Shown here: positions 29,934 through 58,203 of the stretch, one piece after another
Layout: every line of letters starts with the position of its first letter
Numbering within the stretch: the stretch's first letter is position 1
Assembly (NCBI GenBank): GCA_003116975.1
Contig: BGKB01000203.1
Coordinates: 30,865-94,864, forward strand
Direction: 5' to 3'
DNA length: 64,000 bases
Source: Aurantiochytrium sp. KH105
Taxonomy: Eukaryota > Sar > Bigyra > Thraustochytrida > Thraustochytriidae
Position numbers and translations under genes: made by a program
The notes under the pieces: model-generated
What the model was told of the DNA's origin: nothing
Seen by the model: the letters and a program-made list of their open reading frames with translations, nothing else
Database searches by the model: none

Positions 29934-31979
29934 ATGTCGATGCTCGACTATGGCGTCCCGCTTCTGGCGCTGGTGGTCTTTGGCGTGTTGGCCTTGAGCG
30001 CGGTCAAGACTCTCAGGTCGACCGCCAAGGCTGGCGCCGCAGGAGCGAGCGGAGATGCGCAAAAGGCTGCCAAGGCTGCGCAGGAGGAAAAAGAGGATGA
30101 TCGCGTCCCCGTTGCCGTGTACTTTGGAAGCCAGACTGGAACTGCCGAAGGCTTCGCCAAGGATGTGGCCAAAATCATCAATGCCACGGGACGCTTCAAG
30201 ACGCGTGTGCTCGACCTCGAGGTCGCCGAGCGGACGCCGGAAAAGATGCAAGCCCCGAAGCTCGTCCTCTTCCTCATGGCCACATACGGCGAGGGCGATC
30301 CCTGTGACAACTCCATCGACTTCATGGAGTTTTTGACCAAGAATGCCGAAGACGGCGGCCCTCAAGACGGCTGGGCCGACGGCATCGGATTCGCCGTCTT
30401 TGGCCTAGGAAACACCCAGTACGAGCAGTACAATGAGATGGGCAAACGCGTGCACGCGCGCATGACCGCACTTGGAGGCACCGAGGTGCACCCGCTCGGG
30501 CTTGGCGACGACGACGACGACCTCGAGTCTGACTTTGAAAAGTGGCGCGAGGGCCTCGTTGAGTCGCTGGCCAAGTTCGCCTTTTCTGACGAAGACGCAT
30601 CCGCGCTGGCGTCCGCCGGGGCGAACGCCGCGAGCCAGCAGGCTGGCGCGCTGCCCATCGCGACCTGGCATGCCACCTATGTCCCAAGCCCTGAGGACGA
30701 AGCATTGCGCCAGCGCGCCGGCTTGCTCGAAAAGCCGGGGTCCAACAACTCTCACGTCGACATTTCCTCGCGTCAGTACTACTCGTGCACGCGGGCCACC
30801 GTGCTGGAGACGCGTGAGCTCCGCCAGGACACCGGAGCCGGCAACACTATTCACATCGAGTTCGATCTCGAAAACACAAGTCTCAAGTACGAAACGGCCG
30901 ACAATCTCACGGTCTGCGCCGCCAACGCGACCGCACTTGTAGAAAGCACGGCCAAGCTTCTGAGCCTTGACCTCGACCAGTGGTTCACGCTGCAGCCCGT
31001 TATTGCGGACGACGACTCTGGCGCCCCCAAGCCGCTCTTCCCCTCGCCCTGTACGATTCGCACGGCTCTCACTTATTTCACTGACCTCAACGGCGCACCC
31101 ACGCGCAGCTTGATGCAGCACCTCGCCGGCTTTGTCTCTTTGGCGGAGCACCGCGAACGCATGCTCCACTTGGCTTCGCGCGACGGGGCAGCTGATTTCC
31201 ACGCAAACATTGCTGCGCGGAAACTGAGCGTGGCTGAGATCTTTGAGACCTTCCCTAGCTTCAAGGTCGAAGAGGATAATCTCGGTGTCTTTTTTGAGCT
31301 CATGCCGCGCCTCAAGGGCCGCGAGTTCACCATTGCCTCCTCATCTTCGAGCCAGCCCTCGCGCGTCGCCCTCACGGTAGGCGTTGTGCGGGAAATGCGC
31401 AGCGAGAACAGGCCTTTCGAAGGCGTTGCGTCGACCTTCCTGCACCGCCTCTCGGTGGGCAGCTCGGCGCTCATCTTCATCAAAGAGTCGACCTTTAAGA
31501 TGCCCGAGGACCCGAAGAAGCCCATCATTCTCGTCGGCCCGGGCACCGGTATTGCGCCGATGCGCGCTTTCGTGCAGGAGCGCATTCATCAGCGCCAGAC
31601 GCGCGGGCTCGAGACTGGAGAGACGGTCTTGTTCTTTGGCTGCAGGCGCGAGGATGAAGACTTTCTCTACAAGGACGAGCTCAAGGACGCGCTGGCTTCG
31701 GGTGCGCTCACTACTCTTCACACTGCATTCTCTCGTCAGCAGGCCGAGAAGGTCTATGTCCAGCACGTCATGGAGCGCGAGCACGAAGAAATCTGGCGAT
31801 TGCTAGAGGATGGTGCTCACGTCTATGTTTGCGGTGCAACATCCATGGGAAAGGACGTGACCACTGCATTGGTAAAGATTGCTGCCCAACATCTCGGCAA
31901 TGATACCGCCGCTGGAACCAAGTTTGTCGCCGATCTGCAATCTTCGCACAAGCTCATCCAGGAGCTCTGGTCTTCATAA
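29934..31979 (+). CDS. NADPH-cytochrome P450 reductase
   Basis: A 681-residue diflavin reductase, the standard length for the family, passing electrons from NADPH through FAD and FMN to microsomal P450s and other ER acceptors. The N-terminus (MSMLDYGVPLLALVVFGVLA) is a signal-anchor. The FMN domain has VYFGSQTGTAEGFAKD, FLMATYGEGDPCDNS and FAVFGLGNTQYEQYN. The FAD domain has FTIASSSSS and GVASTFLHRLS. The NADPH domain has ILVGPGTGIAPMRAFVQER, FFGCRREDEDFLYKDEL and YVCGATSMGKDV. It ends ELWSS, with the penultimate aromatic region conserved. The ATG at 29934 is chosen. An AAGC repeat tract lies 35-63 nt upstream. Confidence 0.96.
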   Translation: MSMLDYGVPLLALVVFGVLALSAVKTLRSTAKAGAAGASGDAQKAAKAAQEEKEDDRVPVAVYFGSQTGTAEGFAKDVAKIINATGRFKTRVLDLEVAERTPEKMQAPKLVLFLMATYGEGDPCDNSIDFMEFLTKNAEDGGPQDGWADGIGFAVFGLGNTQYEQYNEMGKRVHARMTALGGTEVHPLGLGDDDDDLESDFEKWREGLVESLAKFAFSDEDASALASAGANAASQQAGALPIATWHATYVPSPEDEALRQRAGLLEKPGSNNSHVDISSRQYYSCTRATVLETRELRQDTGAGNTIHIEFDLENTSLKYETADNLTVCAANATALVESTAKLLSLDLDQWFTLQPVIADDDSGAPKPLFPSPCTIRTALTYFTDLNGAPTRSLMQHLAGFVSLAEHRERMLHLASRDGAADFHANIAARKLSVAEIFETFPSFKVEEDNLGVFFELMPRLKGREFTIASSSSSQPSRVALTVGVVREMRSENRPFEGVASTFLHRLSVGSSALIFIKESTFKMPEDPKKPIILVGPGTGIAPMRAFVQERIHQRQTRGLETGETVLFFGCRREDEDFLYKDELKDALASGALTTLHTAFSRQQAEKVYVQHVMEREHEEIWRLLEDGAHVYVCGATSMGKDVTTALVKIAAQHLGNDTAAGTKFVADLQSSHKLIQELWSS

Positions 31980-42241: not shown

Positions 42242-43484
42242 TCAAGACAGCTTTCGCCGCGTGATTCGAGGCTCTTGCTGATTCTCAGAGGCCTTCTCTG
42301 CTGGGAAGGCGGTCCCAGTCACGTTCTTCTCCGATCGTTCTGAAGTCAGTCCCGCGGTCGTTGTATCAGCGGCATCAGCCCCAGCCTCTATCCCCATAGC
42401 ACCAGCAGCACTTGCACTTGCACTAGCACCAGCATCATGTGTTATGTTGCTTGCCCCACTCGATTCTGATTCGTCAGCGTTTCCAGATGCAGATGATGTG
42501 GTATCTGCGCTGTCCACGCGCTGCTGGGGGGCCGGCCGCTTCCTCTCCGCACCACTGCTTCGGGCGTGTCCAATAGATTGAGCGGCCTTGACGTCCGCAG
42601 TGCCCGCGCTACCGGCACCGCTGCCGCCAAGGGCACGCAGGTCAATGGCCATGCAAGTAAGATTGTCGTCCGAGCCGCGATCGAGCGCCAAACGCACGAG
42701 CCGAGCAGCTCCGTCCTTGGCTCCTCTTGCCAGAAGAACCTCTGCAGCCTCATCATTGCTAACTTCATCCCAGACGCCATCCGAAGCGATACAGAGAAAG
42801 GTAGGGCCTTCGTTCATGGGAACCTTTCGCGAAACAACCTCTGGAGTCCCTGTCACGTAGGGTTTCAAGCTTGCGTCTCCCAGCGCGCGGCTCACAGCGA
42901 GACAGCCTTGCACGCGCGCCAGACCACCGCACATGATTATCATGCCGCCCTGGTCCCGAATCCGCTCGGCTTCGTCGTCCAAGCTCGGAAGATGGTCTCG
43001 GGTCAGCACGTCGACTTCTTTGCCCGCGCGAACGAGCACGCATCGCGAGTCACCGACATTTCCAACCGTGAGACTCGCCTGCTGCTTTTCGTCTTGACAA
43101 ACAATTGCCACCGTTGCCGTCGACCCATCTTGCAAAAGATGCTCATGCGAGAGCTCGCAAAAGACGCTGTCCAGGAATTCAAAGGCCGCCTGCATGGCCC
43201 GTTTTGGATTTGTTTCCAACTGCGCATGCTGCGCGAGCGTGTGGAGAAGTTCGTCTGCGCAGAACTCGGCGCATAGACTGCCGCCGTGCCCATCGTAAAC
43301 TCCAAAGAGATGAATATTGTCCTTTCCGGCGCTCAGATGCGTTGAAAAGCAGTCTTCCATGTAGTCACGTTTGCCTTGCTTGGCAATGCAGGCAAATTCT
43401 CCATTTGCTCCAAAGTCCTCGCGCTCGCGCGCTTCTGGGCTCGGCCGTCCTGCTTCATCCTCGTCCTTTCCAGGACAACTTGGA

Positions 43485-43524
<40 letters not shown>

Positions 43525-44431
43525 AGGACGCTCCTGATAATGCCGCTGCTGTTGTTGTCGATGCTGACGACGACGATGACGGCGAAGCCGAAGAGGATGA
43601 AGCAGACGATGATGGGTGATTGAGTTCTCTTGCTGCCTTGCGGACACCCTCGGGCGGCTCGTCCGAAGATGCTCTCCTCTGTAGCCGTGCGCGCAAGGTG
43701 GCTCTAATGCGCTCTCTCTCGGGGCCGTCATGGACCGCAGGTTTTCCAGTTTGGCCGAAAAAGTTGCGCCGCGCGATGGATGCTTGCATTAGGCCTTGCA
43801 GCTGCTCCCACAAATCAAAGTCTTCTCCACTTCCGTCATCCCCCTCCTCCGCCTCCTCTTTCTTGTCCTCTTCTTCCTCTTGATCGCCGTCTTGCCCGGC
43901 CTTGCCGAGCTCTGCGCTCTTGTGCATGCTCATCCGCAGCAAGTCTGCCAGCCCTGCTGGGCCCGGTCCAGAAGCCGCTCTCGCCTCCGCATCTTCTGGG
44001 CTCGGTCCCGCCATCTGCGGCGCCGCGTTCGGGCTCCGCGGCTCCGCGTCCGCGCCGCCGCTCCTCGCGCCGGCCCCGCTGTCGCCGCTGGCCCCGCCGC
44101 CGCGCTCCGCGCCCGCGCTCGGGCTGCGCCGCCGCGCGCGCTGCGGCGCGACCTGCTTGCGCCGTCCCATCGGGCGCCCGCGCTCGCGCGCGCGCGCGCT
44201 CAGGCCGTCGCTGCCGCAGCGCCGGCGCCGGCCACGGCCACGGCGGCCGCGCCGCGCGCCGCTCCCCGCTCTCCGCCCGCCCGCCCGCCCGCTCGGCCGG
44301 CCGGCTGCCGCGCGGGCGCCGGCCTCGCAGCCCCGACGGCGACGCGAGGGCGCTATCTTTCGGGCTTTGGCTTCTTTCTGCCTCTTCCTGAGCAGGACGA
44401 GCAGCCAGCAAGAACAAGACCAAGACGACAT
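42242..44431 (-). CDS. PP2C-family Ser/Thr phosphatase with low-complexity extensions
   Basis: A 729-residue Mg/Mn-dependent phosphatase. The N-terminal ~330 residues are Arg/Ala/Ser-rich and include a poly-Ala run from a GCT repeat (about 43483-43521). The PPM/PP2C core follows, with GKRDYMEDCFSTHL, FGVYDGHGG, VGNVGDSRCVLV, VSRALGD, CIASDGVWDEVSNDEA and GSDDNLTCMAIDL, so the metal-binding Asp residues are present. The C-terminal ~130 residues are Ser/Ala/Thr-rich. The substrate is unknown. The ATG at 44431 is directly preceded by four CTCGT copies. An internal ATG near 44170 (MGRRKQVAPQ) is an alternative start. Confidence 0.92.
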
Positions 44432-45182
44432 GACGAGACGAGACGAGACGAGACTCGGGAGGAGAGCAGCGGCGAGGAGGGAGGGAGGACCTGCGGTGGG
44501 CGGTCTGGCATCGGCGAGGTCGACGCGGAGACGCGGGCCAGCGAGCGAGGCGGCCGTAGCGCCGTCAGCAGAAAGTGGGCCCGCCGCTGTTCGGGTTGTA
44601 GTTTCGCGGGCGGCGGCAGCTGCAGGTGTCGTTCGCAGGTGTCGCGGATTGGTCCAGCGCAGGATCTGTTGTCACCACCATCCTGGACGTAGAGGTCTCT
44701 CGGGGAGGTGTCAGTCTCGGAATGGAAGGGATACGAGCAAGCAGCATTGACAGCCCACTGACTGACTCTTCGTAAAAGAATAAAGCCTCAACTCACTCTT
44801 TGCTATGTTGGCTATGCCAGCTTTCTTCGGCCATCTTCCTTCAATGTGTTAGTAACCCGAACCACCCATGCCCCGAGCGAATGATGGGTCACCGTGGCAT
44901 TGGAAAGCTTACTTGCTTCGTATTATGACAATCAACTCGAGTGAGAAATGACTCGATTCAACGATTTGCTCCTCGTCAACGGATCTCCCCTAACTACTAC
45001 GAACCATGATGTATCATTGTGGAATTGACGCACGTACACATTGAAAGACGGCCTCATTCTGCGCCAGGGCCTGGAGAAAAGAAGAAGAGCGGCCCTTGCG
45101 CGCGCGCGCCGCGTGCAGGCGAGCCAGAGCGGCAAGAGCAAGACCTGCGAACGTGGCGTCGAGCAAAGTCAGAGAGCGCACG
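44432..45182. other. Divergent intergenic region between PP2C and the FAM228-like gene
   Basis: A GACGA x4 tract abuts the PP2C start. The rest has no recognisable RNA or protein gene. Frames near 45019-45182 run into the FAM228-like gene but lack an ATG. Confidence 0.5.
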
Positions 45183-46568: not shown

Positions 46569-48591
46569 TCACGGATGAACGAGTCGGAAGCGGTTTCGTG
46601 TGCGCTTTTTTCGTGCAGGCCCTTCGTCGAGAGGCGCTTGGTTTTCACCTTCGAGATCGTCAAGAGGGACGTCCGAGGTCATCGATGATGTGGGCACCCC
46701 AAGGCCCAAGGACACCGAGGACGAGGTCGGAACATCTGGGACTTCTGCATCCGACCCATGAACCGAAGGCCCCTGAGGATCTGCAAGCTCGGCTGGGACA
46801 TCCTGCATCACAGCCACGACTCTTGGGCCTCCTTGACAGTGGGGCCGCACCAGCTCAGGTAATCGGTGGAAATCTGCAAAGCAAGACTTGCACAGATTGA
46901 CATTGCAAACACTGCACTTCCACGTAGTCTGCCGGCCTTCGCGGTATCGATGCGTCTCCCCCTTGAGACATCGTCTGCAGCAGAGAATGCAATGGCGTTT
47001 TGGCCGCTTTTGGCGCCCGGGCTGAAGAGGCATCTGCACCATGTCATGCTGTAACGATTGGTCAAGTCGCTGTTCTTTGATTGCCGGGTCCGAATTGGCC
47101 ACTTGAGCAAGCTTGTATGTTTTCTTCGTGGCGCCAGTGCTTCTCATGGAGTATCGATTCCCGGCCTCTCGTCTCCGTTCTCCAGCGCCAACAAGCTGAC
47201 TGCCGAGGTCCTGGTCCTGGTCCTGCTGATGCTGCGGAAATCGCTCGTGGGCACGCCCCGCATGATGCTGATGATGATCTTGCAACGCATGCTCATCAGC
47301 TTCAATATCTTGCGGGCGCCTCTGTATGGAAATTTGATCTCGATCATGGTGCAAATAGTCCGCAAAAGCAGGAACGTCGGCACTGCTCACATTTGTGGGC
47401 GTGTGAACGAGAGCCCGCCAGCGCTCTGCCAGGGCGCCCTTCCCATTGTCCCATTGAAAGGCAGCAAGGCGCTCGTGCCACTCGGGTCCTGACATAAAGG
47501 TCGCGGGCAGATCCGGCCGGTTCGCATAATCTCGAAGACGCTTAGCAAGCTGCCGCGTTGTACGGTAGAGACACGCATCTGGAAAGAGTTCGGGGTAGCT
47601 GAGACGGTCGGGGCACAAAGGATAGCAGCCACAGGACGCGGCTTCAAGCATGGCGACCCCGTAAAATTCGTGGCGCGCCGTGGAGACTGCCACGTCCATG
47701 GTTCGCAAAAGATCGAGATACTCGCTTCTCTCCTTTACTCGACCGCACCTCATGAGGGACACGTTGGGGAGCGACTCCAATTTAGCTCTTGCTTGGTCTG
47801 CGGACTGCTGTGCTGATGAAGTTATGTCACCCAAGATGTAGACATGAATTGGACGTGCCTCGCTGAGCTGAGAGAAATCCTCAAGGACCATTATCCACTC
47901 GTCGCTGCCTTTGTCGTGCTCGAAGCGGTGCGGCCAGACAACGCGAAGCGGTTCTTGACGCTCTTCCACAGCATTCGGCATGCTTCGCACCGGAGATTCT
48001 AATTTGGCTGTAATGGGGACCCCAAGGACTTGACTTTTCGCACGCAGCGCGTCAATGTCAAGCGCCGGCGGGCGGCTCCCCGTTGGCGCCTTATTGATAA
48101 AGGACGGCGCAAGTTTGTAAAAGGAGTCCATGTTGTATTGCGAGTTGAACGCGATTACATCGGCGCAAAGACAGCTGGCGATTTGGTTCCAGCCCAGATT
48201 AAAGGCCGACTGGCCTTGGCTCTGGGCTGCAGCTTCGGACTGACGTGGGTACTCCAGCTGGTTTTCGTGAAAGTAGACCACCTTTTTACATTTATGGAGG
48301 TCCGGACGCAGGCCCAGGAGCTCTGCAACGTTCATCATGGCTGAAAAGACAATGCTCCCCGGCACGCGGTCGCGCGGGATGGCCTCTGCAAAGTGAGCTG
48401 CGCTGACGAGCATCCTCCAGTGCCATTTTGCGGCGCCCTTCCAGCCCACGATTTGCACCTCGGGCCATTCGCTCGACGAAGCGTTCTCGCTCTTGCGCAG
48501 GTCGCCCTCTGGCGCCGCGACGTCTCCACCTGTTGCCTCTTGCCGCTCTCGCTGCTGGCCCTCCTGCTGCTGGCCCTCGTGCTGCTGCTCT

Positions 48592-48631
<40 letters not shown>

Positions 48632-48773
48632 GGCCGTCATTCGCCACGGCCGCGCGCGCGCCCGGCGAGGCGCTGGCGAGGGTGTCGCACAGCTGCGCGT
48701 GCGACCCGCTCAGGTACGGCTCCACCACCACGCACAGGCCCGCGCCGCGCCGCGCCTCGCCCTCCGCCGCCAT
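46569..48773 (-). CDS. tRNA-queuosine mannosyltransferase-like (QTMAN/GTDC1) with C-terminal zinc-ribbon
   Basis: A 734-residue protein. Residues about 10-430 match the GTDC1/QTMAN family: VVVEPYLSGSHAQLCD, KWHWRMLVSAAHF, KKVVYFHENQLEYP, NQIASCLCADVIAFNSQYN, VVWPHRFEHDKGSDE and HEFYGVAMLEAASCGCYPLC. QTMAN adds mannose from GDP-mannose to queuosine of tRNA-Asp. A poly-Gln run (CTG tract at about 48587-48633) interrupts the N-terminal part. The C-terminal ~250 residues are an extension not in animal QTMAN (typically ~460 aa): Gln/His-rich linker, then at nt about 46860-47000 a Cys-His cluster HCILCCRRC, WKCSVCNVNLCKSCFADFH. It resembles the zinc ribbon at the end of piggyBac transposases. The start is the first ATG, 48773. 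Confidence 0.88.
48587..48633. repeat. CTG/CAG tract encoding poly-Gln in the QTMAN-like gene
   Basis: About 11 uninterrupted CTG triplets, plus flanking imperfect copies, read as CAG on the gene strand and encode poly-Gln. Interruption within an otherwise conserved enzyme suggests a surface loop. Confidence 0.85.
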
Positions 48774-50073
48774 CGCCGCCGCGCCGCACGTCCTCGCTCT
48801 GCCGCCGCCGATCCTGCGCCGCCTGGGCCTCCTGCTTTCCACTCTAGGTATTCTATTTCTATTTCCTTTCTTGCCCTGGGCCCCTCCCTGCCCAACTAAC
48901 GGCGGCTGGCCGCTCTGTGGCCCCGAGCGCGCAAGTCGGGAATGCGCAGCGCGCGAGTCGGCCGTCGCGGCGGCGCAAGTGCGCTATCGCGCGTCGCTCT
49001 CCTTTCCTCCCTTCCGCCTTTTTCTTCCCGCCCCGCCTCGGCGCGGCCGCCCCCGCGGAGACAAGGACCGCTACGGGCGGAAAAGCTGGCCCCGCGGCCG
49101 CCTCCGTGCGCCGTGCGCGCTCAACGGATTTATGGACCGATGGCGTGTGAGCCGAGGGGAAGAGGGGCCGTCGATGGTGGGTGGGTGGTCGCGCGCGGTT
49201 CGCCTGCTTGCCTTTTTGCCTTTTTGCCTGCCTACATGCATGCCTGCCTGCCTGTTCGTTCGCGGAGAGACTGCGGGCCGCGGCCGCGCGGAGCGTAAAC
49301 ATTTTTACTTTTCTTTGCAATACGTACTAGATGGACAAAGGAAGGACTAGGTATACAAACGATTCGTTGATTTATTGGCACACAGAGAGCAACCAATCTA
49401 GCGCCGAGGTGAGTCCGAGCGAACGGAGCCAGACGCCCGCTGTGTGACCTTGGGACTAGGAACACAAGCAACCAACTGCTTTCATCAAAGCAACGGTGCT
49501 CACCCACATCATATGCTGTTTTGCATTACGCCGTCAAAAGCACAGCTCTTTTATTCATCACTTGAAGAGGCGCGGCAAGGAAGGTTGGCTTGTTTGCCAA
49601 AGCTGCAGCCTCTGGCAGGACGAGGCCTGTAGTCCTTGCTGCCTTGAGTGGCGAACACCTTGTACAGCGGCAGCTGGAGCGCGCACGTGTCCAAGAGAGA
49701 GCGAGCGAGGCGAGGCGAGGCGAGGCGAGGCGAGGCGAGGCGGCCTGGACTGTGCGTTCACCGCCGCAAAGCGAAAGTCTCTCGAGCTGCTGCGTAGCAA
49801 AGACAGAAAGAAAGAGCTGAGCACCAAAACAAATAGGGTTGTCTGGCGACAACATTTTTGAGGTTGTTGCTCCGCGAGCTCGCTCCCGAGCCTCGCGGGG
49901 GCAGGCGTTAGAGCGGAGTGCGCTCGTCGCTTCGTCTCGTTTGCTCTCTATCTCCCGCGCGCACTAGGCGCGCAAGGGCACATTTGTGCAAGTGGGCAGG
50001 CGTACGTGCGTGTTTAACGCACTAGCGCGCTTCGCGAGGACAAAACAACGAATGCAAGCAGCCGAAAAAGAAA
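48774..50073. other. Divergent intergenic region between the QTMAN-like and FHA/cNMP genes
   Basis: About 1.3 kb with no supported gene. It contains GCCTGCCT-type repeats (about 49225-49255) and a GAGGC pentanucleotide tract (about 49704-49741, seven to eight copies). AC-rich sequence precedes the start at 50074. Confidence 0.5.
49704..49741 (+). repeat. GAGGC pentanucleotide repeat
   Basis: Seven to eight tandem GAGGC copies about 330-370 nt upstream of the FHA/cNMP gene start. A similar GAGGC run lies at 27118-27140 before another gene. Confidence 0.85.
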
Positions 50074-53000
50074 ATGTCGTACGAGGATCATTCTTTAGAA
50101 GATGAGGAGAGAGTGACGGCCGGGTGCGAGATTTGCACGCGCGACGACCTCATCGAGCGAAAGTTTCACTTCAAGCCGCCCCTCTTTTTGCAGAACACCA
50201 CAGACAAAATCAACGGCAAGAGCGCTCTCGGGGCCGGGGAACGATGGTCGCTCAAAGAAGGGGTGGTCGGATCGAATCCTGGCCAGAATTACGTTTTCAA
50301 GTGCGAGGATGTGGCGCCAACGCAAGCTAGCATCTACTGGCAAGGTACTAGCGATGACTTTCTCTTTGAAAGCAGCTCCTCGAGCACAGGAAATTACTTA
50401 TTGCTAAGCAGTGCGCGGGCCTGTCGGGAGGCCGTCAAGCTTGAAGACGGCGACACCTTTATGCTCGCTCTGCACGATTCGGCACACGAGAAAGGGTCGT
50501 TTGTTCGCACGCTTTCGCGCTCAAAGAGTCTTGCGAGATCCTTGAGTCTTCGAAACACTGGAAAGATGACATCAGTGAATCCGGAACGATACGTGACATT
50601 CAAAGTTAGAATACACCCTGCCGAGAAACCGCGCCTCACAATTGAACGAAAACTGTCCAAGCGAAGGGCATTCACCACGATTCGCTCTGGCGAGGCGCCC
50701 AGTCTTCCTTCGCTTTACAGACAGAAAGCAGAGGAGCTGGACTTGAAGGGGATTCTCGCGGGCTTTCTTGGCGCAGCTTCGACCTCCTCGGAAAAGCCGC
50801 ATTCCAAAGGCTCGCTCTTGACTCCAGAGGAGGTCCGAACGCTCCAACAGAAACATCGCGCGGGTCGAAATAACGTGGTTTTTGTGGGCAAAGTTGGCGG
50901 CGAGACGACGGAGGCAACGACCGAACTTGATCTCGATATGAACACGCTACAACGGAATATTTACGGCGGTTCCAGTGTGCTGGAAGAGGAAGCTATTCTA
51001 GACGCCGTGTGGTGCGACACCGAGGTCCCTGGGGAGCAGCTCGATTTCATGCGTGCGGCTACAAATCAGGTTGGCGTCAGCATCGAATCCGCGCACAACT
51101 CCGGACAGTCCGGCGAAGATAGCTTGCGCGCCACGGAATTCGAGATGCTCGTCTCAGACATTGCTTCGAAACGCCAGCACGAGCTCGACAGTCTTTTCCG
51201 CAGACGCGTCGAGCTTGAAATCGTGGATGGGCCACCGAGTCTAAAGGGCTCAAAACGCGGGTTTGGGGTCCACGACATCTCCATTGGGTCACACAGGATG
51301 AGCGATTTTCGGATCGAGGGCCTATCAGGCTTTCACGCTCGTATCGAGCGCGACAACGAGAACAACTTTTGGCTGCGAGATCTGGCCGTGGATCAAACGC
51401 TTTCGACATTACTCGTGCTAGGCGCTAAACGCCCCGTTTCCATTCTGCCAGGAGACATTTTTCGACTCGGCAAACACTGTGAAGTGACCGCGTACTCGTT
51501 GAGCGACCTGGCGCCGTCTGAAGTGAACGAGACGTGGGATTGTCTTGCTCTTCGCGTATGCAAAACGCGAAAGTCGCTCCGCTATCGTCAGCTCGGAAAC
51601 GATGAGCGTGCGGGGCCGGAGCCATCTTATTTTATCATGTCGCCTTCCGTGGAGGACATTGTTATTGGCCGCAAAGTACTCGAGTGCGACATTGCCGTCA
51701 AAGATTACGAGATGCCTCCGTACGCAGCGTCAATATCATGCTACGATCGCAAGTTCTTTGTGAGCGCCATGCCCGAGAGCCGGAAAAAGGGAGTCTTTAT
51801 TGAGCTCAGTCGACGCGTACGCGACCCCAATGGCTTCAATGGAAAGGGACGAAATCCGCTTGGGCGCTTGCATTTGTTGGAGCGGGGCGACACTATCAAA
51901 CTCGGACGATCGCAGCTCACCGTGGCGCTGAAAAAGGTTGAGGAAGCTGACGCTGTCGCGAAGCGTCGAAGTGAATCGCACGCAGTGCTGCGCAGAGTGC
52001 GATTGTTTGCGGGACTTCAAGAAAGTGAGCTCCATCTTCTCGCGAGCTCCGTGTGCACAATGGAGTTCGGCGTCGGAGACATTCTGATTCGCCAGGGCAG
52101 CAAGGTAACCGGAATGCTCGTCATTGGCAAAGGCGAGGCCCACGTCTTTCACGAGAGTGCACCATCCAAAATTCTCAACAAGGTCAAGGCGGATAATGTT
52201 TTGGGTGAAATGTCGCTATTCTCCGCGTCGCCAGCCTCGGCCAGTGTTCGCGCAGCGACTCCGATGGTATGTCTTTACGTTGACTTCTACCTTGCCAAGG
52301 CAATTATCCACCCATCGAACTTTGAGATCATCCGGACTCTTGTTGACCATCGCACGACGCAAGCAAACGTGCATGATTTGCAGCAAATCCCGTACTTGGA
52401 GAACGTGGACTCGTCCCGGCTCCTGTTGCTTTCGCGGCGGCTCTTCCGCGTCGAACTGTCGAGCCCAACTCAGCTTTTCCGAGTNCTACCTTGCCAAGGC
52501 AATTATCCACCCATCGAACTTTGAGATCATCCGGACTCTTGTTGACCATCGCACGACGCAAGCAAACGTGCATGATTTGCAGCAAATCCCGTACTTGGAG
52601 AACGTGGACTCGTCCCGGCTCCTGTTGCTTTCGCGGCGGCTCTTCCGCGTCGAACTGTCGAGCCCAACTCAGCTTTTCCGAGTCGGCGATGAGCACGAAT
52701 GCATGTACATTGTCAGCTCAGGAACGCTCTACGTGTCGCGCACGGGGGCCGAAGATCGACCGACTCGAAGGGGTTCGTACAAGCCTCTCTCGAGACGATC
52801 ATCGTTTACGCCCGTCAGAGGTGGGGGGAACATTTTTTCCGAAATGTTGGAATCCGCACTGATCCGACCCGAAGAGCCGTTCAAGGCACCGTATGCCGTA
52901 GCCACCAATGCAGAAGTAATTCTCTATGGCTTGCTTCGAGAGGACTTTATCAAGATTATGAGCATGAGTGATGAAAGTGTTCGCGAGGAAACTGAGCACT

Positions 53001-54013
53001 GCCGAATCAACATTAGAGATCTTCTTCCTGCGCACTTTGCATCGTCACGCCGGCAGTCTCTTGCGCCGCAAATGCTCGTACGAAGCGGCATGGAGGACGG
53101 TGCACCGAGTCAGCCTGGCGCCGAGACGCCGTCAAAACGAATCAGCAATGACAAAAACTTCTCTTTCAAGACGGTCTCCCGCGGAAGCATCGCCATCAAG
53201 GCGCCTGATTCGACCCGCATTCTCCCTGGAGAGTTTGCGATGACGTCTGCACAGTCAGAGAGATTGCGCCCAAGTCGACGACATACTTCTCTTTCAAGCA
53301 GTCAGAGCGTTGACGAGGGCGCCGAGGGCGACACGCTCGCGTATATCGAGCGCCTTGTTGCCGCGAATGCACCTGCTCGATCATCGGGGCAAGACTCGCA
53401 TGCTGAAGAACAAAGTGCTACGGATGGAAATGGCGAGAGACTTGATGACGACGCGGATACCATATCTCTCGCGTCCACGGAGACCGCGGATATGTCCGAT
53501 TTGGAGGACGCGGAAATTTTGACAGACAACGAGACCTTTGACGACGCGCTGTTCTCCAAGCGCTCGGACCTCGAAGCACGTTTGCATGGGCTCACGCTGG
53601 CAGAGATTGAACGCGAGCTTGCAAAGGAGCCCTTTTACCTTGTCCTCAAGTGCATTGCTGGCCCACAAAAGCGACAACTCTTCATTTTGACCAAGGCCCT
53701 GACCATCATTGGTCGGTGGACATCGACGAGCAGGGACGAGGAGGCCAAGGACCCGCTTCCCGGGCGCCGCGTTATCTCGCTCAACGATCGCACGGTCAGC
53801 CGCGTGAATTCGATCGTGCAGTATCGAAGCGGCGACTTTTTCCTCAATGATGTGGAGAGTAAGTATGGCACGCACCTGAAACTCAAGGCGCACGAGGACC
53901 TGAAGCTTGAGGTTGGAGACGTCGTCTCGTGCTCGCAGCACGAGTTTGAAGTCTTTGCTCGAGTCAAGCTGCAGTTCAGTGGCCAAACCTCGTCGTGCTG
54001 TTCGATTTTATGA
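50074..54013 (+). CDS. Multi-FHA, tandem cNMP-binding-domain protein with CaaX end; interrupted by an assembly scar
   Basis: The frame from the ATG at 50074 and the frame ending at 54013 are the same gene, offset by +1 at 52485. There one N joins two copies of a 198-bp block (52287-52484 and 52486-52683). Removing 199 bp leaves one frame of 1,246 residues. Domains: a divergent N-terminal FHA-like region (about 60-140); an FHA (about 380-475, FHARIERDNENNFWLRDL); a third FHA-like region (about 520-630); a cNMP-binding domain (about 640-750, LFAGLQESELHLLAS, phosphate-binding cassette LGEMSLFSASPASASVRAAT with Glu and Arg); a second, degenerate cNMP-binding domain; a disordered linker; and a C-terminal FHA (LNDRTVSRVNSIVQY, DVESKYGTHLKLKA). 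It ends CCSIL, a fit to a CaaX prenylation box with an adjacent Cys. A membrane-anchored, cyclic-nucleotide-responsive phospho-reader is inferred. No catalytic domain is seen. Confidence 0.88.
52287..52683 (+). repeat. 198-bp direct duplication around a single N
   Basis: Bases 52287-52484 and 52486-52683 appear identical and abut one N at 52485. The second copy restores coding continuity with the downstream half of the gene. This is the pattern left when two overlapping contigs are joined without merging, so it is most likely an assembly artefact rather than biology. Confidence 0.93.
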
Positions 54014-57000
54014 TGAAGCGCAAGCTTAAGCTTTAAACTTTCTCGGATGAACGTCGGTCGTGCAGTGTAGACTTTTCCCTTTGTGTGCGAGCTGCATGTG
54101 CAGCCGCAGCTGCAGCAGCTGCAGCTGCAGCAGCAGCTGATCTGGTGCTTGGATGTCTCATTTATATTTGCGTTTGCTTTTCCTTTCTTTCTATCTTTCT
54201 TTCCTCAAGGCTTGCATTTCGAGCCAGAACTGTCTCATCTGTTCAACCAATTCGGTTCTTCGGGCTGTTCAGTTTTTCAGGTCGTTGCGGGCTGACTAAT
54301 TGACTGGCCGAACGCATCAAACTCTGTCAGCCTCCACTCTACTCCGGTCCACCCCACCACGCCGCCCCACCCCGAGCAAGCCTCTATCAACGGGGTTGCT
54401 GTTCGTATGCCCTGGGTCTCTCTGCCAGGAGTTCTACGATCGACCGACGACCATTTCACAGCGGCCAGCTATTTCTGTCGACATGGCATGCCATACGAGC
54501 CGTGTGGGCTGTGCAGTGCATGGGCTTGCGCGCGGCCCCACCGCCCTCGACGATGTTGCCAGCCACACAGAGCCACACCACACCGCCAGCACGAGCAGAA
54601 GCAACGCAACAGCAGCAGCAGTTGCAGCTACAGCTGCAGCGAGCGGTCTGTGCGACACATTGGAGGTGGCGAGGCCAAGTTCGTCTCGTGGCCATGAGCT
54701 TCGCCGATGGAAATCATCATGCGCCGCGGGTTTCGGCAGCGGCCAAGGCTCGCAAGCAAGCTGCTCTACTGCAGCTGCGCTTATTCGAGACTCGATGCGG
54801 CTGCCTGAACCGGCGAGGCAACGCGCTGCGGACGCGGAATCTGGAACCAGCAGCCGCCGGCAGCGGCAGTGGCAGCGGCAGCGGCAGCGGAGTTATTGTT
54901 AGGTTATAACCCGCTGGCCGCTGACAGTGAGTGCAAGAGTATTCAGACTGCTCCTGCGCGCAAGAACAATCGCCATCGACGATGGCACATTCTAACTTTT
55001 TCATGCGATTCAGAGCGCGCTGGTAGTCCATTGTTTCGCCTATGCGCCGTCCGTCGATCGTGAGTCTGCGCTTTACTGTTACGTCGGCCGGCGAGGCCTG
55101 CTTGCTTGCCTGCCTGCCTGTTTGCTTGAAGGCAGCGATGACAACTGGCTGATTATTGATGATGGGTTAGGAAGTCCGAGTCCGGGCTGTGCCAGGGGGG
55201 GAAAGAGGAGATCTCTTTCGCCTTGCATGCATACAATGATTATTTTCGCGGTGATGCGAGCGAACTGGAGAATGAAGCGTCAATTAATTAGCAGAAGACG
55301 GTCGGCATGCGCCCAGCGAGGATGTCGCAAGAGCTTGAATGCAAGAGATCAATTTCCATTTCTTTTAAGCTACTTCTGGACGTAGGTATAAAGTCTATTC
55401 GGATAAACTTTGCGTTTCACCATGATCTTCTGTGTCTGTTTGTTTACTACCTGTCGCAATCGCTTAGACTCTCAGCAGCAGCAGCAGCAAAGGCTTTCGA
55501 TTCCCGGATTGGGCGACGCCTCCATGCAAAATGTGGATCACGAGATCAACAAGCGAGCGAGCGAGCGAGCAAGCGAGCACGCACCGTACCTTCGCGAAGG
55601 ACAGAAACAAGAAGTTGCCCGCACCGACTGATCGCGCTCGTCATCGACAGTCCATTTGAATCCCTTTCATGAGGAGTAGGCGTTACTCCATGGCAGCCGC
55701 TGCCGGCCGTGGCCCCCGTGACAGGACCGTCCAAAATAGAAATCCTCTTCGTTCGCGCCTCCTTGTGCACCGCAGCCGAGGTCAAGTTTCCCGACGCTCA
55801 CACCCTCGCTATTGCGCGCACGATTTATTCATCAACCAACATCGAGCGATCAATTCGGTCGTTCGATCGATGAATCCGCCGCAGTCGCCGTCGTTGGGGG
55901 ACGCGCGCAAGGCGGCCGTGCCGAGGCATGCCGCGTCCCAGAAAAGCTCGTCATTCTCCATCCTACTCGTGACCGACGCCAGCAGTCACCCCCTCACTTC
56001 CTCTTACTTTTTCTTCGCTTCACACACAAAAACACACGACAATGCGCGCACGTACGTACGCACACTCGAGCACGCCGTGCCGCTGCTCGCCAGAGACGCC
56101 AGCAGGCACAGCTGCAGCAGTCCGTAGAGTGTCGCGCGCGGGCTCGGCCTGCAGCTAGGGGCAGCAAGCGCGCTCCGTGCCGCCCCTCGGGCTGGCGCCA
56201 CGCGGAGTGGAGTGGAGAGGAGGCGTGGTGCGACGAATTCGCACACGGTCCAGTTCCGGGTTCGGCGGGGTCAGCTTGCGGCGGCGCCGGAGCGGAGGTG
56301 CAGAGGGGGGGGGGAGGGGACCGAGAGGAGGCGTCAGAGGAAGCGAGGACCGCGGGAGGACGGGGGGCGGAGGAGAGAGACAGTGCAGGTGCGGGGAGCT
56401 CAGGCAGGCAGGAGAGAGAGAGAGAGAGATTGTTGAAGACCGACCGGCAGCACGGACCTTCGGCAACGCAGCTGCAGCAGCAGCAGCATGGCAGCCACTG
56501 CCATTGGCAGCAGAAGGCAGCTCGGTGGTGCTGCTGCTGCGCCGCGCTGAGCTGCGCTCCACTCTCCGTCCACTCCACTCCGTGCCGCCCGTCCACTTCC
56601 CCTCCCTTCCCCTCCATTTCCTCGGAAGCGCGACCCCCTACCTAGCACCACCTAACTACCAATCTTCCGGGCTCGAGCCCGCGCTCTTCCTTCACCGCGC
56701 CGGAGCGCGCTGAGCCGGCCGGGCTGAGCCGCTGCAGCTGCGCGCACGCTCGCTCGCCGTGCTGCCAATGCGAGGGGCGCTGCTTGTGCCGCCGGCGCGG
56801 CTGCCGAGGCGCGGAGCGTGGGGACGGGGCTGGATGGACACGAGCGAGGCCCGGCGGAGCTGACTGACCTTCACTCGCTCGCTGGTTCTCGCGTTCGATC
56901 CGATCCATCGACGGACCGATCGATCGATCGATCACTCGTCGTCACTCTCAGTCAGTCAATCATCGCGTCATTTTTCATTCATTCATTTTCCGCGCCTTCA

Positions 57001-57147
57001 TCATTTCTCGTTCGCTCGGGGGCAGGCAGCAGAACCGAAGCCCGACGCAGCGACGACGCAGCGACGACGACCGGGCGCGCGAGACGAGGCGAGGCGCGAG
57101 GCAGACGCACGCGGGCCAGCCTTGCGCGGCAGGCTGGCGGCAGATCG
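54014..57147. other. Long gene-poor stretch before the RGS-like gene
   Basis: More than 3 kb where I support no gene. It contains CAGCTG/GCAGCT palindromic runs (54105-54140), a GGCAGC tract (about 54860-54892), GCGAGCGA runs (55553-55578), a GA microsatellite (56410-56428), GATC repeats (56917-56932) and scattered GC-rich open frames without recognisable domains. A spliced leader of the RGS-like gene or a non-coding RNA could lie here. Confidence 0.45.
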
Positions 57148-58203
57148 ATGAGCAGCGGCGGCAGCAGCAGCAGCGCGAAGGAGGGCAAGAGGAGGATGGC
57201 GGCGATGACGCAGGACGACGTGCAGAACCCCGCGGACAGCGGCAAGAAGGCCGCCGAGGAGGTCGAGGAGGAGCACGCGGAGAGGCGACTGCAGCAGGTG
57301 GGGCAGAGGAGCGACGAGGACGAGGAGGAGAGCAAACTGGGCTCGCCGGCGTCGCCAACGTCGTCTCTGGCGTCGGCACTGTCGCTGTCTCTGGCGCTGG
57401 CGCCGCAGCAGCAGCTGTCGGTCTCGTCCGTGTCGTCTGCGTCCTCGTCTTCGTCACCCTCGTCGGTGAGCTCCACGTCGGCGTTGCCGTCGGCGTCGGC
57501 GTCGGCGGCAGCGGCCTCCTCGTACAGAAGCAGAACGGCGAGCCTGGGCAAGGACATCCTGAACCTGCTCTCGTTTCGGCGCGATACATCCACCGGGAGC
57601 GAGGGCCAAAAGCGACGAAGGTACCGGAGTTGGTCGGCCGCGGCGCAGCGCAAGCGAGCCGGGAGCGACCCCTCTCGAGCATCGGGGGATTCCAAGGAGG
57701 GCGAAGACCAGCAGACTGCGCATCGCGAGAATTGCCGACGCGCCGCCGCATCTGCGCGCTTCTCGCTACAAGAACTTTTGAGTGATGACCTCGTGGCCAA
57801 AGCGCTGGCAGAGTACTGTGAGACGCATCTTTGTGGCGAGAATTTGCGTTGCTTGCGCGCAGTGGAGAAACTTGAGGCAAAGTCGGATGGCTCCAGCGAG
57901 TGGCTCGCTTCCGCGAGCGCTATCAATAGTCGATACGTGAAAAGTGATGCCCCAGACTGGGTTTGTTTGTGCCCCACGCTTGCCAAAAATCTGCAGCGCG
58001 CTCTCGAGACCCACGACAAAGAGCAGGTCGCCAATGTCCTTCGAGCTGCAAAGGCGGAGGCAAGTCACACGCTCGAAACAGATACGCTACCGCGCTTTGT
58101 TAACGCCGCGCTGACTGTCGCGGCGGATACCGAGGACTCGCAGCTACAAACTCGTCTCCTGGAGATTCATTCAAACAAGTCTCCAAAGTCCGCACAAGAC
58201 TGA
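57148..58203 (+). CDS. RGS-like domain protein
   Basis: A 351-residue protein from the ATG at 57148 (MSSGGSSSSAKEG). The first ~200 residues are Ser/Ala/Glu-rich and disordered, ending in a basic stretch (QKRRRYRSWSAAAQRKRAG). The C-terminal ~130 residues resemble an RGS fold: FSLQELLSDDLVAKALAEYC, GENLRCLRAVEKLEA, AINSRYVKSD, then VANVLRAAKAEASHTL and TDTLPRFVNAAL. RGS domains accelerate GTP hydrolysis by G-alpha subunits. The match is by pattern of the ENLxxxxxV and LPRFV blocks and is not strong. An alternative is an unrelated helical bundle. Confidence 0.65.
   Translation: MSSGGSSSSAKEGKRRMAAMTQDDVQNPADSGKKAAEEVEEEHAERRLQQVGQRSDEDEEESKLGSPASPTSSLASALSLSLALAPQQQLSVSSVSSASSSSSPSSVSSTSALPSASASAAAASSYRSRTASLGKDILNLLSFRRDTSTGSEGQKRRRYRSWSAAAQRKRAGSDPSRASGDSKEGEDQQTAHRENCRRAAASARFSLQELLSDDLVAKALAEYCETHLCGENLRCLRAVEKLEAKSDGSSEWLASASAINSRYVKSDAPDWVCLCPTLAKNLQRALETHDKEQVANVLRAAKAEASHTLETDTLPRFVNAALTVAADTEDSQLQTRLLEIHSNKSPKSAQD

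Follow-up and report, generated by a model that had tools for sequence, protein, structure and literature searches.

Contig BGKB01000203.1 of the Aurantiochytrium sp. KH105 assembly (GCA_003116975.1; 76 Mb, 367 contigs) carries a gene that combines known protein modules in a new arrangement. We analyzed it within a window of 64,000 nucleotides, that is, the whole stretch from position 30,865 to position 94,864 of the forward strand, and all positions given here count from the first base of that window. From the N-terminus the encoded protein consists of an FHA-like module (FHA1), a linker, an FHA domain (FHA2), a second FHA-like module (FHA3), a cyclic-nucleotide-binding domain (cNBD1), a degenerate cNBD (cNBD2), an acidic linker, a last FHA domain (FHA4), and the residues CCSIL (Table 1). 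An earlier reading of the same DNA, hereafter the original prediction, had proposed a membrane-tethered adaptor that joins phosphothreonine reading to cyclic-nucleotide sensing. Its coordinates for the gene were exact, from ATG through stop, and its layout holds as a prediction as well, but cNBD1, which it called canonical, lacks the phosphate-binding Arg.

Table 1. Features of the gene in window positions, with residue numbers of the encoded protein
Feature	Positions	Strand	Residues	Remarks
Whole gene	50074..54013	+	1-1246	Single open frame without introns; 1246 amino acids with the duplicated overlap counted once
FHA1-like	50263..50466	+	64-131	Under Pfam cut-off; signature R, S and H all missing
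FHA2	51280..51471	+	403-466	Over cut-off; S418 and H421 present, S406 replaces Arg
FHA3-like	51529..51939	+	486-622	Yop-YscD_cpl match only, under cut-off; R533 present, S and H lost
cNBD1	51976..52368	+	635-765	Cassette Gly and Glu present; Ala721 (52234-52236) replaces phosphate Arg
Apparent assembly fault	52287..52683	.		Identical 198-base stretches flank a single N; missing from second haplotype
cNBD2	52568..52987	+	766-905	Degenerate, without cassette; insertion with RRGS and RRSS
Acidic linker	52988..53602	+	906-1110	Net charge -14, few order-promoting residues
FHA4	53603..53977	+	1111-1235	Over cut-off; R1148 and S1176 present, N1179 for His, Y1198 for Asn
CCSIL C-terminus	53996..54010	+		CaaX-type box with final Leu; same in both haplotypes

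The gene starts with an ATG at 50074 and ends with a stop codon at 54011-54013, and the open frames 50026-52524 and 52109-54013 are two pieces of it. The sole N of the window, at 52485, is flanked by stretches (52287-52484 and 52486-52683) that are identical over 198 bases, apparently overlapping assembly pieces that were joined without being merged, and because this apparent fault sits inside the gene, the window copy is frame-broken. The second haplotype (contig C144, locus L061) carries an unbroken copy of 1247 amino acids from the same Met, 98% identical, in an open frame of 1263 codons from stop to stop. A frameshift or pseudogene is rejected in view of the unmerged overlap and the open second haplotype, and a programmed frameshift on the same two grounds.

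Modules were scored singly against Pfam, with cut-offs of 20.7 bits for FHA, 33.2 bits for Yop-YscD_cpl and 27.5 bits for the cNMP-binding family. FHA2 (23.9 bits), FHA4 (23.0 bits) and cNBD1 (49.0 bits) lie above these, while FHA1 (17.3 bits) and cNBD2 (19.3 bits, in a match spanning 31 residues) lie below, and the FHA3 region matched only Yop-YscD_cpl (18.4 bits). Profiles were also built from within the genome. The cNBD profile holds 20 distinct sequences from the 30 best-scoring loci, with differing haplotype partners counted separately and some loci sharing a gene; the FHA profile holds 13 domains, one for each of 13 of the 15 haplotype pairs among 30 fetched loci, and omits the pairs L027/L030 (Gln at the Ser position) and L028/L029 (match begins mid-profile). 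When each sequence was shuffled 2000 times, the scores of FHA1 to FHA4 with the 13-FHA profile were reached by 10, 0, 0 and 0 shuffles, respectively, and those of the control segments by 614 and 255 (linkers) and by 1418 and 345 (cNBDs). No shuffle out of 2000 reached the score of either cNBD1 or cNBD2 with the 20-cNBD profile. Two results speak against four FHA domains: hhalign against the 13 FHAs gave 86.7% for FHA2 and 84.0% for FHA4, as opposed to 1.0% for FHA1 and 2.3% for FHA3, and a profile of all 30 FHA loci scored FHA1 to FHA4 at only -2.2, 7.5, 2.4 and 12.3 bits. The "about four" FHA modules claimed originally are, then, two sure ones (FHA2 and FHA4) and two plausible ones, with FHA1 the weaker of the latter.

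For the 1246-residue protein Pfam gives only FHA, cNMP-binding and the sub-cut-off Yop-YscD_cpl match; kinase, channel, cyclase and phosphatase domains are not among its hits, which bears out the claim that the first three are missing. In NCBIfam eight families matched at E values up to 1, all far under their cut-offs; the best were, for cNBD1, acetyltransferase Pat (E 5e-12, in its cNBD part) and, for FHA2, TagH, an FHA protein of type VI secretion (E 3e-5), and they only confirm the domain types. The acidic linker is probably disordered, judging from its composition.

The PKA-type phosphate-binding cassette has the consensus F-G-E-[LIV]-A-L-[LIMV]-x(3)-[PV]-R-[ANQV]-A in the excerpted text of PMC10354285; according to excerpts of PMC10959531, the Arg in it serves to neutralise the cyclic phosphate. 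The corresponding segment of cNBD1 reads L-G-E-M-S-L-F-S-A-S-P-A-S-A, in which Ala stands for the Arg in both haplotypes. Alignment with PDB sequences of PKG and the PKA regulatory subunit (PKA-R) likewise shows the phosphate Arg to be missing. By comparison, 19 of the 20 in-genome cNBD sequences have the Arg and one has His. cNBD1 is non-canonical because this residue is missing; cNBD2, which is under its cut-off and has no recognisable cassette, is degenerate as had been proposed. The residue that defines cAMP or cGMP sensing therefore lends this proposed function of the protein no support.

The FHA modules have diverged in a similar way. All 13 aligned in-genome FHAs share the same Gly, Arg, Ser and His without exception, and the full set occurs in none of the four modules of this protein. 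In FHA domains the direct contacts to phosphothreonine are made by the Arg and Ser, while the role of the His is mainly structural. FHA4 would be the likeliest phosphothreonine reader of the four because it has both direct contacts, and any such reading by the protein is most probably limited to this module.

Comparison of the two haplotypes gave a synonymous divergence (dS) of 0.084 and a nonsynonymous divergence (dN) of 0.011 over the gene, a ratio of 0.13. Within FHA2, FHA3, cNBD1, cNBD2 and FHA4 together there are 5 nonsynonymous and 42 synonymous changes, and dN/dS in these modules is between 0 and 0.10, whereas the two linkers have 19 nonsynonymous and 18 synonymous changes; by this contrast five of the six modules are well kept though degenerate. 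FHA3 has no amino-acid change between haplotypes, and cNBD1 likewise has none, against 8 synonymous changes.

Both haplotypes end in CCSIL, as the original prediction had said, so that the CaaX box is CSIL. Leu at the last position of a CaaX box favours geranylgeranyltransferase type I (GGTase-I), and a cysteine next to the box, as here, also occurs at the ends of some Rho proteins. The genome holds six matches to prenyltransferase beta subunits in three pairs, and the one examined from each pair has its best PDB match in GGTase-I (8rdx, E 1.1e-76), farnesyltransferase (1n94, E 2.4e-97) or GGTase-II (3pz1, E 1.9e-78). Prenylation of CSIL is a plausible prediction.

The best fit to these observations is a geranylgeranylated, non-enzymatic scaffold built of degenerate but conserved sensor folds, in which the cNBDs would no longer carry out the usual cAMP or cGMP sensing; we consider that this reading has about an even chance of being right. 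The CSIL box would be geranylgeranylated by GGTase-I, with a palmitate perhaps added to the preceding cysteine, and the lipid anchor would attach the protein to a membrane. FHA1-3 and the cNBD pair would serve as folds for protein-protein docking rather than as readers of cyclic nucleotides or phosphothreonine, and FHA4, adjoining the anchor, would be the best candidate for a module that still reads phosphothreonine, possibly weakly, on a partner protein or on the protein's own acidic linker. CK2-like sites are not in excess in that linker (9 found, 7.3 expected, a number reached in 28% of shuffles). If the scaffold reading is true, the gene offers an example from nature of sensor folds that stay under selection after the loss of their usual ligand contacts, and a clean system for studying the docking roles of cNBD and FHA folds. 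For annotation, a match to a "cyclic nucleotide-binding" domain is in this case not evidence of cAMP or cGMP sensing.

Several points weigh against such a scaffold. Prenylation is predicted from the motif by itself, and conservation was measured on two haplotype sequences only, between which FHA1 is less conserved than the other modules (6 nonsynonymous and 7 synonymous changes). The comparison sets were picked by score and hence lean to canonical domains, and loss of the FHA signature is not unique to this gene, since the in-genome pair L027/L030 also departs from it at the Ser. Structure prediction was not reliable for residues 1-803 (mean predicted local distance difference test score, pLDDT, 31.8), and FHA3 alone gave an all-beta model of low confidence (pLDDT 43.2). 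Nor does loss of the Arg amount to loss of a ligand: the PKA-R of trypanosomatids, which is without it, binds nucleosides in the account excerpted from PMC10959531.

Three other readings are each unlikely. The first is that of the original prediction, in which cNBD1 binds cAMP or cGMP, the FHA domains bind phosphothreonine, and the anchored protein acts as a coincidence detector at the membrane. The Pfam score of cNBD1, its cassette Gly and Glu, and its nearest PDB sequences, which are eukaryotic PKG and PKA-R, are consistent with such an adaptor, as are the Arg and Ser of FHA4 and the Ser and His of FHA2; moreover, the genome has 154 matches to PF00027 (cNBD), counted over both haplotypes and in places several to an open frame, which makes cyclic-nucleotide signalling likely. 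However, Ala takes the place of the phosphate Arg in both haplotypes, cNBD2 has no cassette, and key residues are missing from FHA1-3. Layout and tether hold as predictions, but joint sensing is weakened by the lost contact residues, and we regard this adaptor as improbable.

By analogy with trypanosomatid PKA-R, cNBD1 might instead bind a nucleoside or another nucleotide and so switch the scaffold. In the excerpts of PMC10959531 that regulatory subunit, from which the same Arg has been lost, responds to purine nucleosides, and the absence of amino-acid changes in cNBD1 between haplotypes, together with the retained cassette Glu, would suit a domain that still has a ligand. The same excerpts describe a change in kinetoplastid PKA-R from the cassette Ala to a Glu by which the hydroxyls of the ribose are held, but cNBD1 has Ser there, a residue that 3 of the 20 cNBD sequences from the genome also have at this position. 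A changed ligand of this kind is therefore possible but doubtful.

It is equally doubtful that the protein is a PKA-R-like pseudo-regulator, in which the cNBD pair would bind the catalytic subunit of an AGC kinase and RRx[ST] sites would be its substrates. The likeness of cNBD1 to the cNBDs of PKG and PKA-R argues for docking of a kinase; it includes a KRRS stretch just before cNBD1 that aligns, as an alignment only, with a KRRS that in 5j3u, a PKA chain, precedes the second cNBD. There are four RRx[ST] sites, compared with a mean of 1.3 in shuffled sequences (reached in 4.75% of 2000 shuffles), but this excess is marginal, and the wider motif [RK][RK]x[ST] occurs 7 times against 3.4 expected (6% of shuffles). 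Further, the second haplotype does not keep the RRx[ST] site at residue 1002 but has one at 956 in its place, and Pfam lists no dimerisation-docking domain for the 1246-residue protein, although a strongly diverged one could escape it.

A combined form, a membrane-anchored hub in which the Arg-less tandem cNBDs would sense something other than cyclic nucleotides (e.g. a nucleoside) and FHA4 would read phosphothreonine, we consider quite unlikely; if true, the state of the nucleotide pool and kinase activity would be combined in one non-enzymatic protein. Decay of the gene, that is, degeneration of its domains under relaxed selection, would explain why signature residues are lost in most modules but is very improbable given 1247 open codons on the second haplotype and the low dN/dS, both overall and in five modules.

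The scaffold proposed here can be set beside several known systems. With PKG and the PKA regulatory subunits (PDB 5ezr, 4rz7 and 5j3u) it shares cNBDs in tandem, and cNBD1 can be aligned with them over most of its length; unlike them, it has no kinase or dimerisation-docking domain by Pfam, no phosphate Arg and only a degenerate second cNBD, and it has FHA modules on either side. For the FHA4 segment the PDB listing has no sequences besides the bacterial single-FHA regulators GarA and OdhI, neither of them significant (E 0.96 and 1.6); they show S-x-x-H and S-x-N-G where FHA4 has SRVN and SKYG. To our knowledge, trypanosomatid PKA-R has neither FHA domain nor CaaX box. It resembles our protein in being a protist protein with cNBDs without the phosphate Arg and is among its PDB matches (6h4g, 6flo and 6ftf), and differs in its ribose-binding Glu and its kinase partner, as given in the excerpted PMC10959531. 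CARP1 of Trypanosoma brucei is likewise from a protist; of the three cNBDs predicted in it, two lack the cassette Arg, whereas the first has it. PMC10354285, in whose text the string "fha" is absent, reports CARP1 as a cAMP-binding protein.

A protein with FHA and tandem cNBDs was not found described in the titles and opening lines of abstracts from the open-licence literature searched, bacterial FHA-cNBD proteins not having been surveyed, and the layout is not described in the available portions of PMC11032199, PMC3019232, PMC7159879 and PMC12221091; this agrees with the earlier statement that no described family with this layout was known. Searched for relatives, cNBD1 gave no match in plasmid sequences, and residues 395-803 gave none in phages; the latter segment gave 40 pattern matches in a genome contig collection and 10 in viral contigs, none of which was confirmed.

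The KH105 assembly looks diploid because FHA matches fall mostly into pairs. A whole-genome search with the protein as query, in which 37 of 62 candidates were scored, gave 23 matches, three of which are the two haplotype copies of the gene, and the other 20 all lie inside residues 611-831, the cNBD region; on this evidence the gene is a single locus with two haplotype copies. No FHA and cNBD matches within 20 kb of each other were seen by eye when 43 FHA matches, a list that misses weak FHAs including this gene's own, were compared with the cNBD matches listed, out of the 154. Elsewhere among the cNBDs of the genome, His replaces the cassette Arg in L033/L034 and the cassette Glu in L051 and L059. 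The haplotypes (C144 and C203) diverge by about 8% at synonymous sites of the gene, and their aligned DNA by 5-8%. For alleles such values seem high, and a hybrid origin is possible.

Upstream of the gene, on the reverse strand, lie a PP2C protein phosphatase (42242-44671, Pfam E 2e-48) and a neighbouring open frame (46569-48983) whose matches are tRNA-queuosine alpha-mannosyltransferase (N-terminal domain) and glycosyl transferase group 1. Downstream, on the forward strand, the open frame at 56728-58203 has an RGS domain (Pfam E 6e-11) and so places another signalling protein beside the gene.

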